64,000 nucleotides of DNA from Candidatus Planktophila sp. (GTDB taxonomy: Bacteria > Actinomycetota > Actinomycetes > Nanopelagicales > Nanopelagicaceae), in the NCBI GenBank assembly GCA_003569185.1, contig BGOJ01000001.1, positions 128,557-192,556 of the forward strand. The letters run 5' to 3'. Positions 14,447-51,886 of this stretch are shown here, piece by piece (position 1 is the first letter of the stretch; each line of letters starts with the position of its first letter). Made by a program: the position numbers and the translations under genes. The notes beneath the pieces were generated by a model. That model worked only from the letters and a program-made list of their open reading frames with translations. It had not been told where the DNA came from and did no database searches.

Positions 14447-15730
14447 ATGAAATCTCTTAAAGTCGGCATGCTTGGCTGCGGCACAGTTGGCTCTCAGATT
14501 GCCCGCCTGCTGGTCGCAAATAAAGCTGACCTAACTTCACGTGCCGGAGCACAAATTGAATTAGTAAAGGTTGCGGTAAGAGATGCCAAAGTAAAGCGCG
14601 ATGGAGTGCCAGATAATTTAATTACAACTGACGCAAACTCAATTGTTAATGATCCAAGCATTGATTTAATCATTGAAGTTATTGGTGGTATTTCACCTGC
14701 AAAAGAATTGATTTTAACTGCATTAAAAAATGGTAAATCAGTTGTTACCGCTAATAAAGCATTACTAGCCAAAGATGGCGCAGAGCTTTATGAAGCGGCA
14801 AGTAAGGCAAATGTTGATTTGTATTATGAAGCAGCGGTTGCTGGTGCGATTCCAATTTTGCGACCACTTCGTGAATCATTAGTTGGTGATCAAGTTATTA
14901 GAATTATGGGAATTGTAAATGGAACTACAAATTACATACTCACCAAGATGGATGAAAGTGGCACTGCATTTGCTGATGCACTAAAGCAGGCACAAGATTT
15001 AGGTTTTGCAGAGGCAGATCCAACTGCTGATGTTGAAGGTTTTGATGCAGCTGATAAAGCAGCGATATTAGCTGGCTTGGCATTTCACTCAAGAGTTACA
15101 GATAAAGATGTTTACCGTGAAGGAATTTCAAAGATAACAGCAACTGATGTAAAAGTAGCCAAAGCTATGGATATGGTAATTAAGTTACTAGCAATTACGG
15201 AGTTAACTGCTGCTGGTGAAATTTCGGTAAGAGTTCACCCAGCTTTAATTTCTCGAAATCATCCACTTGCATCAGTTAGAGAGTCTTACAACGCGGTATT
15301 CGTAGAGGCGAAATCTGCTGGCCAGATGATGTTTTATGGCAGAGGTGCTGGCGGTGAACCAACAGCAAGTGCGGTACTAGGTGATTTAGTCGCTATTGCC
15401 CGTCATAAAATTTCAGGTGGCATCGGTCCAAAAGAGAGTGATTACGCATCATTAAAAATTGCACCAATTGGCCAAACAAAAACTAAGTATTTAATTAGAT
15501 TAAATGTGGCTGATAAACCAGGTGTTTTAGAGTCTGTTGCCCATGTCTTTGCCGCCCATAGTGTTTCAATTCAAACCGTTAGACAAACTGGCGCTGGTGA
15601 TAAAGCTGAATTAATTGTTATGACTCATAGTTCAACCGAGTCAGCACTTTCTGCCACCGTAAAAGATTTGAGTAATCTGCCTGCGGTAACTGATGTCGCA
15701 AGTGTGCTTAGAGTTGAAGGTGCAATGTAA
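14447..15730 (+). CDS. hom: Homoserine dehydrogenase with ACT domain
   Basis: Reduces aspartate semialdehyde to homoserine with NAD(P)H, on the branch to threonine and methionine. 427 residues: Rossmann motif GCGTVG at 11-16, the [11 protein letters not shown] signature near residue 160, catalytic K in the [16 protein letters not shown] region, and a C-terminal ACT domain from about residue 348 ([20 protein letters not shown]) expected to bind threonine for feedback inhibition. It lies 18 bases after lysA and overlaps thrC. Confidence 0.95.
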
Positions 15731-33457: not shown

Positions 33458-34697
33458 CTGCACCTAACGATTGAAGTTGAGCGGGAAAATCTGGGTAACC
33501 TCGATCAATATGGAAAGCATCCTCAATAATAGTCACACCATCACTGACTAGGGCGGCCAACACTAAGCCAGCGCCAGCACGAATGTCAGTAGCAACTACC
33601 GGTGCAGCAGAAAGCTGCTTGATTCCCGTAATTGCGGCGTGGTGGCCATCTACTTGAATTTTGGCGCCCAATCGCAATAACTCATTAACAAACATAAATC
33701 TTCCCTCAAATACATTTTCGGTAACAATTGATGTGCCTTCTGCAATTGAATTTAAAGTGATAACCATTGGTTGTAAATCAGTTGGAAACCCTGGGTAGGG
33801 AAGTGTTGCAACATCAACTGCGATTGGTCTTTTATCCATCTTTACTCTAAAACCAGTTTTGGTTGTGGTTACAACCGCGCCCGCCTCAACTAACTTATCT
33901 AATGGAAGCTCCAAGTGATCTGCTCTGCCATTTTCAATTGTGATATCGCCCTGGGTCATCGCCGCCGCAAATGCCCAAGTGCCAGAGACAATTCGATCTG
34001 CCAAGGTGGCATGAGTTGTTGGCGTTAATTTACTTACCCCTTCAATTGTTATGGTGTGGCTACCTAAGCCAGTTATTTTTGCGCCCATCGAAATTAAGAA
34101 CTCACCAAGATCTACTACATCTGGCTCTCTAGCTGCATTATCAATAACAGTTATGCCAGTTGCTAAGGTGGCTGCGGTCATAATGTTTTCGGTGGCGCCA
34201 ACACTTGGAAACTCAAGAGTTATCTTCGCACCCTTTAAACCAGAGGGTGCTTTAGCAATAATAAAACCATGCTCAGATGAAACTTGCGCGCCCATCTCAG
34301 TTAAACCATTTATATGAAAATCTAATCCTCGCGAACCAATCGCATCCCCGCCAGGAAGAGCTACCTCCGCAACCAACTCTCTAGCAATTAATGGCCCTAA
34401 TACATTTATGGATGCTCGCAACTTTCTAACCATGTCGTAATCGGCGCGATGACCAAGTTTTTGTGGAACATCAATGAGCACTTCATTGCTATCTCTATTA
34501 ATATCAACTTGGCACCCTAATCTGGTTAACAACTCAGCCATGTATTCAACATCGGCGATCGCCGGCAGATTTGTAATTTTTGATTGACCAGGAGCTAGCA
34601 AAGTTGCCGCCATTAATTTAAGTGCTGAGTTTTTTGCCCCAGAAACGCGAACTGTGCCAACTAATTTGGCACCTCCAACTACCCGCAAGCGTTCCAT
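33441..34697 (-). CDS. murA: UDP-N-acetylglucosamine 1-carboxyvinyltransferase, fosfomycin-insensitive type
   Basis: First committed step of peptidoglycan synthesis. Starting at ATG 34697 the protein is about 418 residues, with K22 in [12 protein letters not shown] and the active-site loop [13 protein letters not shown] in which D118 replaces the fosfomycin-targeted Cys (C115 in E. coli), as in mycobacteria. The frame opens upstream to 34754 but that would overlap the divergent cobalamin gene; TACAAT on the minus strand at 34706-34711 supports a start at 34697. Intrinsic fosfomycin resistance is expected from the known effect of Cys-to-Asp. Confidence 0.94.
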
Positions 34698-34734
34698 AAT
34701 TCCCCATTGTAATTGCTTGGGGTAGGGTGAGGTC
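34698..34734. promoter_or_regulatory. Divergent promoter pair murA / adenosyltransferase
   Basis: The 37-base gap holds TACAAT on the minus strand (34706-34711), eight bases before murA, and TAGGGT on the plus strand (34723-34728), six bases before the ATG at 34735. Both fit leaderless -10 placement. Seen as motifs only. Confidence 0.45.
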
Positions 34735-35310
34735 ATGGTCAACTTAACCCGCATTTACACAAAAACTGGCGATGATGGCACAACCTCACTCGGGGATATG
34801 AGCCGGACTTCAAAAAATGATCCACGACTTGAGGCGTATGCCACCGTTGATGAAGCAAACTCATCAATCGGAGTTGTGTTGGCAATGGGTGATATCAAAG
34901 ATGAAAGTATTAAGAAGTTGTTAATTCGAATTCAAAATGATTTATTTGATGTTGGTGCAGATCTTTGTACACCAGTAGTTGATAACCCAGCATCTGAACC
35001 GCTTCGAGTATTAGAGTCACAAATCGATTATTTAGAAAATCAGATCGATCACTACAACGAAAGTTTGCAACCACTGCGCTCATTTGTATTACCTTCCGGC
35101 ACTCCTGCTGCAGCGCTAATGCATGTGGCAAGAACTGTTACTAGAAGGGCAGAGCGCACTACTTGGCATGCAATCCATGCCTTCGGTGGTGGTGTTAATC
35201 CAATAACAGCAAAGTATTTAAATCGTCTTTCTGATTTATTATTTGTATTGGCAAGATTTGTTAATAAAGATGAAGGCGATCAGCTTTGGGTGCCAGGAGC
35301 AAACCGCTAA
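34735..35310 (+). CDS. Cob(I)alamin adenosyltransferase, PduO type
   Basis: Makes adenosylcobalamin from ATP and cob(I)alamin. 191 residues: the opening [16 protein letters not shown] (ATP loop), [12 protein letters not shown] near residue 40, and [11 protein letters not shown] near residue 135 followed by [12 protein letters not shown]. It implies a B12-dependent enzyme elsewhere, such as ribonucleotide reductase or methylmalonyl-CoA mutase. It is convergent with the next gene, and the two stops share CTAA (35307-35310). Confidence 0.93.
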
Positions 35311-48558: not shown

Positions 48559-50022
48559 CTACTTCTTTCTTCCGTGCAAGCGCTTAATTAAGGTTGTTAG
48601 GATTTTTTCAGAAAATCTGGTGCGTTTAAAGGTAGTAAATCTAAGTGGGATATTAAATCTAGTTTTAACTACTGTGCGTGCGTAGGTGTACTCAATTAAA
48701 CCTTCAGCGCCATGAATGCGGCCATATCCAGAATCTTTAACTCCACCAAATGGCACAGATGCAACAGCTGCAAATAAAAAGACTGAATTTACCGAGACCA
48801 TGCCACAGGCAAGCTTTGCGGCAATCTTTTCACCATCTCGCTTAGAAAAAACCGCTGCAGCAAGTCCATATGAGCTGGCATTAGATAACTTAATTGCTTC
48901 ATCTGTATTCGATACCTTATTAATAGCAATAGTTGGCCCAAAGGTCTCCTGGGTCATCGCAGTTGAATCCTCTGGCACATCCAACATAATTACTGGTTCA
49001 ACATAGGCACCCTTTACAGACTCTGTTCCCCCAAGTAAAAACTTAGCTCCCTTTGCTTTGGCATCATCTAAATGGGATTGAATAACATTTAATTGTGATG
49101 GCATGGTGGCTGGGCCATAATCTTGGCCAGCTTGAATCTTTTTTGCCATCTTACTTATCTCTTCAATAAATTGATCAGCAACAGATTCGACCACATAAAC
49201 TCTTTCTGCCCCAATACAAGATTGGCCAGCATTAGCCATGGCAGACCAGAGTGTGTATTCAGCAGCAAGTTTTATATCAGCATCTTTTGCCACAATTACT
49301 GGATCCTTGCCACCACATTCGAGCACAACTGGAATCATTGATTGCGCGCAACTTTCTGCCACCTTTTTAGCAGTTTTAGTAGATCCGGTAAATGAGAGCT
49401 TATTAATCTTTGATTGAGTTAATGCTCTACCGGTATCAGGTAAGCCAGTCACCGTTGCAAAGATATTTTCAAAAGGTGCAATGAGAGCAAATGAATCTGC
49501 CAACCACTGTCCAACACCGGGTGTGAACTCAGATGGTTTAAAGACAACTGTATTTCCAGCAGCTAAGGCGTAAGCAATAGAGCCCATTGGCGTAAAGATT
49601 GGATAATTCCAAGGACCAATTACACCAACCACACCAAGGGGTGATCTTTGAACCTGCGCCTTCATGTTAAACATCAATAAACCAGCTGGGCGGTTTTGTT
49701 TTTGCATAATCTCTTCTGCATGCTTTGCTGCCCAAGCAAGGTGATCAATTGCAATAGAGACCTCAAGGGAGGCATCACTTAATGGTTTGCCACACTCAGT
49801 TGCAACTAAGGCAGCAATCTCTTTTTGATTTTTAGTTATATAAGAAGCCCATTTAAGTAAGGTGCGCTTTCGAGCGGTGAAACCAAACTCTTGCCAGCGA
49901 ATACTTGCAGTTTGGGCCAGATTTACTTGGGCAAATACCTCATCGAGTGAAAAGTTTTTATACTTTGCAATTACCTCACCAGTTTTAGGATCATATTTAT
50001 CAAAGGTGGCTTCAAGGTTCAT
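48559..50022 (-). CDS. NAD(P)-dependent aldehyde dehydrogenase (succinate-semialdehyde type)
   Basis: A second aldehyde dehydrogenase, about 487 residues. Motifs: GVVGVIGPWNYPIFTPMGS (catalytic N), VVFKPSEFTPGVG (K), FTGSTKTAKKVAESC, LECGGKDPVIV (general base E), NAGQSCIGAERVYV (nucleophile C), and TFGPTIAI. Start is fixed at ATG 50022 because TACTCT lies six bases upstream on the minus strand; a longer frame to 50103 would overlap the divergent hydrolase. The C-terminal extension (about 30 residues after the catalytic domain, ...IKRLHGRKK) is basic. Substrate cannot be told from sequence. Confidence 0.87.
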   Translation of the reverse strand: MNLEATFDKYDPKTGEVIAKYKNFSLDEVFAQVNLAQTASIRWQEFGFTARKRTLLKWASYITKNQKEIAALVATECGKPLSDASLEVSIAIDHLAWAAKHAEEIMQKQNRPAGLLMFNMKAQVQRSPLGVVGVIGPWNYPIFTPMGSIAYALAAGNTVVFKPSEFTPGVGQWLADSFALIAPFENIFATVTGLPDTGRALTQSKINKLSFTGSTKTAKKVAESCAQSMIPVVLECGGKDPVIVAKDADIKLAAEYTLWSAMANAGQSCIGAERVYVVESVADQFIEEISKMAKKIQAGQDYGPATMPSQLNVIQSHLDDAKAKGAKFLLGGTESVKGAYVEPVIMLDVPEDSTAMTQETFGPTIAINKVSNTDEAIKLSNASSYGLAAAVFSKRDGEKIAAKLACGMVSVNSVFLFAAVASVPFGGVKDSGYGRIHGAEGLIEYTYARTVVKTRFNIPLRFTTFKRTRFSEKILTTLIKRLHGRKK

Positions 50023-50044
50023 AAGGTAAGAGTAAACTCTTTTT
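50023..50044. promoter_or_regulatory. Overlapping divergent leaderless promoters
   Basis: Within 22 bases lie two -10 hexamers on opposite strands: TACTCT on the minus strand (50029-50034), six bases from the ALDH ATG, and TAAACT on the plus strand (50033-50038), six bases from the hydrolase GTG. They share the bases TA at 50033-50034. Both genes show no Shine-Dalgarno, as expected for leaderless mRNAs. Confidence 0.6.
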
Positions 50045-50755
50045 GTGCCAGAGTTAATCCGCCCTTCAACGGTATTGCCCGCTAATCGCAGCGCAATAAC
50101 CATAAAAACCAGCGATGGGCTTAATTTAATTGGTGAGGTTGCTGCCCCGCTGGGTGAAATAACTGGCTCACTTTTAATGCTTCACCCCAACCCATCAGGT
50201 GGGGGAATGATGGACTCTCATATATATAAAAAGGCAGCAAACCGCTTACCTGCCATGGCTGGAATTCAAATAATTAGATTTAACACCAGAGGAACGGTCA
50301 GTGAGGCAGGAAAAAGTGAGGGTGAGTATGACCATGGTAAAGGTGAAAAGTTAGATGTATTAGCAGCCCTTGATTACTGCTTTGATCAATTAAAGATAAA
50401 GAATTTATATGTAATTGGTTGGTCCTTTGGCACAGAGCTTGCACTGCAATATGCAAGGGATAAAAGAATTAAAGAGTTAATCCTGCTAAGCCCACCGATG
50501 CTATCGACAACGGAAGATGATCTAGATTTTTGGATTAAGGATGGCAGAGTGATTACCGCACTTATCCCTGAGTTGGATGATTACTTAAAGTCTGAGGCAG
50601 CAAAGCTTAAGTTTTCTAGAGTTAAAAATTTAAAGCAGATTGATGTGGCAGGTGCAAAGCATCTATGGGTTGGGGAGCCAATGGTTCATTTAGTTTTAAG
50701 TGAGATTGTTAAGGTTATTGCGCCAAACAGATTGCCACTTGCGCAAGAGATCTAA
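50045..50755 (+). CDS. Alpha/beta hydrolase (dienelactone hydrolase-like)
   Basis: A 236-residue alpha/beta-fold hydrolase with LMLHPNPSGGG (oxyanion region, HPxP type), GTRG-like FNTRGTVSEAG and nucleophile S127 in GWSFGTE; the acid and His are probably D near residue 156-180 and H in GAKHLWVG. The HPNPSGGG variant is typical of small hydrolases of unknown substrate widespread in bacteria (COG2945-like). Starts with GTG at 50045 and ends sharing CTAA with the convergent AI-2E-type gene. Confidence 0.75.
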   Translation: MPELIRPSTVLPANRSAITIKTSDGLNLIGEVAAPLGEITGSLLMLHPNPSGGGMMDSHIYKKAANRLPAMAGIQIIRFNTRGTVSEAGKSEGEYDHGKGEKLDVLAALDYCFDQLKIKNLYVIGWSFGTELALQYARDKRIKELILLSPPMLSTTEDDLDFWIKDGRVITALIPELDDYLKSEAAKLKFSRVKNLKQIDVAGAKHLWVGEPMVHLVLSEIVKVIAPNRLPLAQEI

Positions 50756-51886
50756 GCTTGATCAGCTCTTGGAAAAACAACCTCATCTAAAATAAGAAGT
50801 ACTGCTGCTGCAATTGGCACCGCTAGAAGACCACCAACTAAGCCAAGCAGAGAGGCACCAAGTAAGGCAGCTATAATTGTGACTAGCCCTGGAATTGCTA
50901 GAGACTTTCGCATAATCCTTGGCGTGATTACATAATTTTCAATCTGAACATAAACAATATAAGCACCAAGTGCAATCGCTGCGGTGGTAAGTGAGTCAGT
51001 TAGTGACACCACAGTCACTATCGACATTCCAATGAAGTGGCCAACTAATGGAATAAAGCCGCAGATTAAAACCACCATTGCAAGTGGTCCTGGATATGGC
51101 ATGCCAACAATTAATCCCATAATTAAAATGAAGGTGGCAGCAAGGGCGGCAATAATTGCTTGTCCGCCAACAAAGGAGCCGATTCTGGCAACGATGGCAT
51201 TGGTTAATTTAGAGACTCGGTCCCGCCTTGTTGCTGGCACGAACCTGAGACCAATATTTATTACCTGTGGCAGGGAGGCAAGGAAGTAGAGAGTTAATAC
51301 AAGAATAGTAATTGTTGAAACCAGCCCTGAAACCACAGCCTTTCCAACACCAATTACCCCGCCAAAGGCGGTGATCGCAAATTGGCCATCTTTAATGAAG
51401 TGAATCAATTTTGGTTTGCAGTGAGTCAATTACTCCATACTTATTATTTAGATCATTAATAAAGGCGTTGTTATTTAAATCCTTAATTAAGGCTGGTGCG
51501 TTATCAAGTAATTGATTTCCTTGATCAATCAGCGGCGGAACTGCGATTGCGATAAAGGCTGCGACAAAGAGTAAAACAGATGCCATTACAGCGCCCACCG
51601 ATGCCCCACGGTTTAGCCCACGATTTTGAAAAAACATTACCGCTGGATTTAAACCAGCTGCTAGGAAGATAGAGATAATAATGAGTATAAATACCGCACT
51701 TGCTGAGGCCAGTGCTTGCAACATGGTTAGCGCAAGCAGTGCGCCAATAGTGACCATAAAGCCAAAGTAGAAAGGGTGGGAGGTATTTACCGGTTTACCT
51801 GCCGTACCAAAATCTTCATTGGCAACTTTGCTCACTTTGCGCCGAAGTAATTTTGAAGTGATCTTTGGTTTAGTAAATCTAGCCAT
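50752..51886 (-). CDS. AI-2E family transporter, split by a one-base frameshift
   Basis: A polytopic membrane protein of the AI-2E/PerM exporter family. The first part (51886 to about 51413) has hydrophobic helices near residues 50-95 and 105-125 and reads ...NNKYGVIDSLQTK. An extra base in the TTTT run at 51409-51412 shifts the frame to a stop at 51392. The rest resumes as LIHFIKDGQFAITAFGGV and has the family's later helices and GLVGGLLAVPIAAAVLLIL end. Corrected length is 377 residues, normal for the family. TAAAAT on the minus strand six bases before the ATG supports the start at 51886. Substrate unknown. Confidence 0.82.

Follow-up and report, generated by a model that had tools for sequence, protein, structure and literature searches.

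How transcription of two divergent genes can be initiated when their start codons are separated by 22 nt is the question raised by the boundary between an aldehyde dehydrogenase (ALDH) gene and an alpha/beta hydrolase gene in Candidatus Planktophila sp., a very small actinobacterium of fresh water. The pair lies in a window of 64 kb, i.e. the whole stretch of DNA that was analysed, which belongs to an 868-kb genome assembly (G000) estimated to be 64% complete. Judging from the geometry of the gap and its conservation among relatives, the locus is very probably a housekeeping-type bidirectional promoter which would produce two leaderless mRNAs, with co-expression of both genes as the most likely outcome.

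Layout of the gap and starts of the two genes

The segment 50020–50047, read directly, is CATAAGGTAAGAGTAAACTCTTTTTGTG. It can be laid out as CAT AAGGTA AGAGTAAACT CTTTTT GTG, where AAGGTA overlaps no box apart from the minus-strand −10, which begins at 50034. The features of the locus, numbered within the window, are the following.

48559–50022, minus strand: ALDH gene, 487 aa, start codon ATG at 50022, Pfam Aldedh (E 8e-128)
50010–50016, plus strand: expected place of the hydrolase −35, in ALDH codons 3–5, without a conserved motif
50029–50034, minus strand: −10 TACTCT of the predicted ALDH promoter, followed by 6 nt (50028–50023) and the ATG at 50022; TANNNT conserved at 71 loci
50033–50034, both strands: self-complementary TA common to both −10 elements
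50033–50038, plus strand: −10 TAAACT of the predicted hydrolase promoter, followed by 6 nt (50039–50044) and the GTG at 50045
50045–50755, plus strand: alpha/beta hydrolase gene, 236 aa, start codon GTG at 50045, Pfam Abhydrolase_1 (E 3e-10)
50052–50057, minus strand: probable ALDH −35 TTAACT, 17-bp spacer, in hydrolase codons 3–5 (GAG TTA ATC)

The first-pass annotation had described interlocked divergent −10 boxes with two bases in common and with 6 nt between each box and its start codon, and this description is exact to the base. The gap between ATG 50022 and GTG 50045 is 22 nt long and, according to the leaderless geometry, the predicted start sites of the two transcripts are 23 bp apart. 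No Shine-Dalgarno sequence was found upstream of either gene (CTTTTT before the hydrolase, TACCTT before the ALDH). Both genes thus display what is typical of leaderless genes, namely TANNNT 6–7 nt before ATG or GTG and no Shine-Dalgarno site.

Neither product received a name above the NCBIfam cut-off; the best NCBIfam score of the ALDH was obtained with the succinic-semialdehyde dehydrogenase model, under its cut-off. The N-terminus of the ALDH from ATG 50022 agrees with those of its relatives. Among the 71 loci of the family with the same arrangement (see below), an in-frame stop codon occurs four codons upstream of the hydrolase start, within the hydrolase's own −10, at 56 and upstream of the ALDH start at 26. 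Longer N-termini of either protein, named in the earlier annotation as an outcome that would speak against leaderless starts, are therefore unlikely. In the window itself, the hydrolase frame is closed by the TAA at 50033–50035 inside its −10. The ALDH frame extends upstream without a stop as far as 50103, and the window sequence alone therefore still allows a longer ALDH. The corresponding ORF of 514 aa (start 50103) was rejected because the relatives' N-termini align at 50022 and a stop lies four codons upstream in 26 of the 71.

On the other side of the hydrolase gene (50752–51886, minus strand), an AI-2E-type permease-like gene is present in two overlapping ORFs of 225 and 164 aa in different frames; in the relative L104, it is a single ORF of 356 aa (419–1489). 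The split would reflect either an assembly frameshift or a broken gene.

Leaderless signature and conservation of the shared TA

The genes of G000 were called on the contigs with a simple longest-ORF script and the choice of starts is therefore approximate. TANNNT was found exactly 6 nt upstream of 9.5% of candidate ATG/GTG starts vs 0.39% of in-frame internal ATG/GTG codons, which is a 24-fold enrichment, and the only other clear peak was at 7 nt (3.7% vs 1.1%). The motif precedes 186 of the 841 called genes at 6–7 nt, and TANNNT leaderless starts were similarly assigned to 285 of the 1136 called genes of G254, a relative of another genus. Since TANNNT peaks at 6–7 nt genome-wide, both promoters of the ALDH–hydrolase gap are of the genome's usual leaderless kind. 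The proposal of two divergent leaderless promoters is thus backed by these statistics and by the conservation described below.

The sharing of a TA step is not confined to this gap. Among the 109 divergent pairs called in G000, 22–24 have a leaderless −10 on both sides and 3–4 share the TA, although those shared-TA pairs that overlap or have a GTG start, e.g. at C1 ~364850 of G000, may be false. In 1.2 Mb of G254, a leaderless −10 on both sides was seen in 49 of 152 divergent pairs and a shared TA in six, one of which is the same ALDH–hydrolase pair. In both genomes, no other single offset is as common as the shared TA among pairs with divergent leaderless starts. As TA reads the same on both strands, just one further consensus base is needed to create a second −10 at this offset, and this property alone may account for the excess. 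The 22-base gap, which had been called an extreme compression, is therefore real but not unique. Another divergent pair with a shared TA, AAGTCTACTGTT, 7 nt from both ATGs, is located on contig C1 of G000 at ~15072–15097 and also in G068 at ~135525–135550, i.e. in two species of the genus. A second divergent pair of the window, at ~34697–34735, carries leaderless-type −10 boxes on both sides; these are not interlocked, with 38 bp between the starts.

The search covered 108 near-complete genomes of the family and found the hydrolase in 106, and a divergent ALDH was recognizable at the expected place in 84 of the 91 distinct loci. At 71 of these 84 loci, which represent several genera, the shared-TA arrangement is present, mostly with 6/6 spacing and a 22-nt gap. 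Two separated −10 boxes were seen at nine of the partnered loci, and at the other four the ALDH −10 is degenerate (TATCCC); interlocking is hence not required. In the clade formed by L106, L020, L022, L019 and L026, the −10 boxes lie 7 bases further apart (gap of 29 nt), which provides a natural comparison for the effect of interlocking.

To set this conservation against a neutral baseline, fourfold-degenerate third positions were used in 1902 locus pairs with hydrolases 50–80% identical. Only six positions of the 10-mer ANNNTANNNT count as evidence, since the search itself demanded the four consensus positions. These six showed 76% identity vs 32% at the fourfold sites, and the hydrolase discriminator showed 38% in the same pairs. 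Across both hexamers (relative positions −5 to +5), conservation per position is mostly 0.8–1.0, with a single value of 0.55, and it falls from 1.0 at the final base of the hydrolase −10 to 0.42 one base further. Positions 4 and 5 of the hydrolase −10 (A and C), which were not demanded by the search, are invariant over the 71 loci. The loci share descent, so that 71 loci are not 71 independent observations, and the fourfold comparison and the tree correct for kinship in part. On the strength of these alignments, the shared-TA layout is not a chance arrangement but a real feature conserved across the family.

Loss of the partner gene provided a further comparison. A divergent ALDH is missing from four loci, L043, L044, L054 (Ca. 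Planktophila versatilis) and L063, and in L054 other genes occupy the region upstream of the hydrolase. In the tree, the four form one clade nested inside the shared-TA loci. All of them keep the hydrolase −10 (TAGACT or TAGAAT) 7 nt from the ATG, and the hexamer on the ALDH side has become TACTTC, which falls outside TANNNT. The apparent decay of the ALDH-side −10 after ALDH loss is a single evolutionary event, in the predicted direction.

The −35 elements

It had also been stated that each gene has its −35 within the coding sequence of the other. This is true by geometry, but a conserved −35 was seen only for the ALDH promoter. Its TTAACT, which matches TTGACA in only four of six positions, occurs with spacer 17 at 43 of the 71 loci, and TTGGTT takes its place at 11. 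The overlapped Leu4 codon of the hydrolase is TTA at 50 loci vs four listed with another Leu codon, and in the rest of these hydrolase genes TTA accounts for 24% of the Leu codons; codon 4 has the second highest codon identity among the codons examined. Although codons 3–5 also open the conserved protein motif PELIRP, amino-acid conservation does not explain the choice of TTA. These counts show synonymous constraint on the putative ALDH −35 within hydrolase codons 3–5. The retention of GAGTTA in L104, which lacks this ALDH partner, counts against reading it as an ALDH −35.

On the hydrolase side, no common hexamer was found at spacers 15–19 among the 71 loci. Leaderless promoters show nearly no −35 signal across G000 and a weak −35 excess at spacer 17 in G254.

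Use of the promoter and comparison with known systems

In the reading we prefer, RNA polymerase holoenzyme would recognize either of the two head-to-head TANNNT −10 boxes that share the TA step, and would load onto the same ~22 bp facing either way. Transcription would start on the first base of the start codon, i.e. A 50022 for the ALDH and G 50045 for the hydrolase, and both leaderless mRNAs would be translated in the absence of a Shine-Dalgarno site. Transcription towards the ALDH would be aided by the −35 encoded in hydrolase codons 3–5, and the hydrolase direction would lean mainly on its own −10. We infer the actual start sites, the sigma factor and the absence of a switch from the features described above. 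Both orientations could presumably not be occupied simultaneously; simple co-expression would still be the likeliest result, with competition arising only when one direction turns strongly active. Co-expression is taken as the default because, at basal activity, the five E. coli bidirectional promoters tested were transcribed too weakly for competition to occur (Warman et al. 2026, PMC12825309).

Selection for the coupling of ALDH and hydrolase output through polymerase competition, without a regulator, might underlie the family-wide shared TA, whose conservation would then exceed the needs of two separate promoters. We regard this as unlikely; if true, such coupling would fix the ratio of the two products or cut noise in a streamlined genome.

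The first-pass annotation went further and expected the two genes to be mutually exclusive on each DNA molecule, the interlocked boxes having evolved as a switch in which the orientation of the polymerase sets ALDH or hydrolase expression. Simultaneous binding is indeed sterically implausible, one polymerase binding event excludes the other at bidirectional promoters, the partner is repressed in E. coli once one direction is strongly activated (PMC12825309), and interlocking was kept at most of the partnered loci. The exclusion is momentary, however, and the E. coli promoters did not compete at basal activity. Moreover, separated promoters are tolerated at the same locus in nine relatives, and the shared TA at several other gene pairs is to be expected from compaction and the self-complementarity of TA, and not from a switch specific to this locus. 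Exclusive ALDH or hydrolase expression is possible but unsupported, and we consider a dedicated switch quite improbable.

A common repressor shutting both genes might instead bind AAGAGTAAACTCTT (50028–50041), a perfect 6+2+6 inverted repeat present here and in most members of the genus. Its right arm past the −10 (50039–50041) is variable outside the genus and among some of its members (ACTGCT, ACTTAT), whereas the hexamers do not change, so that conservation tracks the −10 boxes rather than the repeat, which is generally not kept outside the genus. No regulator gene directly adjoins the pair in the ORF list of the window. Since the outer arm of the 14-bp repeat is unconserved, an operator was rejected as the main explanation and is very improbable. 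A direct repeat at a distance of 21 bp, GAGTAAACT / GAGTTAATC, was dropped as its first copy turns into GACTAAACT or GACTAGACT in other genera. That the boxes are chance look-alikes in an A+T-rich gap, with the true start sites elsewhere, is hardly credible: TANNNT is a loose motif, but its 24-fold enrichment at precisely 6 nt, a much stronger conservation than at neutral sites and the broken ALDH-side −10 of the clade without the ALDH all argue against it.

The preferred reading, a bidirectional promoter with co-expression, can be placed among known systems. Divergent starts of mapped bacterial bidirectional promoters lie 7–25 bp apart (Middlemiss et al. 2023, PMC10268837); 18 bp is the most frequent spacing, and those of 10 and 23 bp are likewise common (Warman et al. 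2026, PMC12825309). The 23 bp predicted here from the sequence geometry would fall within this range. Bidirectional promoters with overlapping −10 elements were described by Warman et al. (2021), as cited in PMC12825309, and the opposite-strand −10 boxes overlap here in the same manner, at TA 50033–50034, an overlap which 71 of the 84 loci retain. The two products are mRNAs, which is the case for 24% of E. coli bidirectional promoters (PMC12825309). In contrast to the known cases, both transcripts are predicted to be leaderless, and the promoter therefore fills the entire gap between the start codons; in addition, the arrangement is conserved family-wide and occurs in an uncultured streamlined actinobacterium, with starts predicted from sequence. 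The crtR–crtE divergon of C. glutamicum was considered as a precedent and set aside, as its layout differs.

Leaderless genes with TANNNT are known from Actinobacteria, including M. tuberculosis (PMC3898074, PMC4633059), and from Deinococcus (PMC12340547). The two genes studied here resemble them in having TANNNT directly before ATG or GTG, no Shine-Dalgarno site and a weak or optional −35. Those papers cover single genes, whereas an interlocked divergent pair is found here. In the part of the literature that was covered, neither a description of divergent leaderless promoters that interlock nor a map of transcription starts in Nanopelagicales was found.

The family thus offers a natural comparative series, with interlocked boxes, separated boxes and a lost partner, which together with a −35 written in the codons of the other gene is usable to test polymerase competition at such loci. 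The locus is a compact case of an already known type, the bidirectional promoter. Such promoters are known in model bacteria through the mapping of start sites; in uncultured streamlined Nanopelagicaceae, they can be recognized in the sequence by itself, since leaderless starts determine where transcription is expected to begin.
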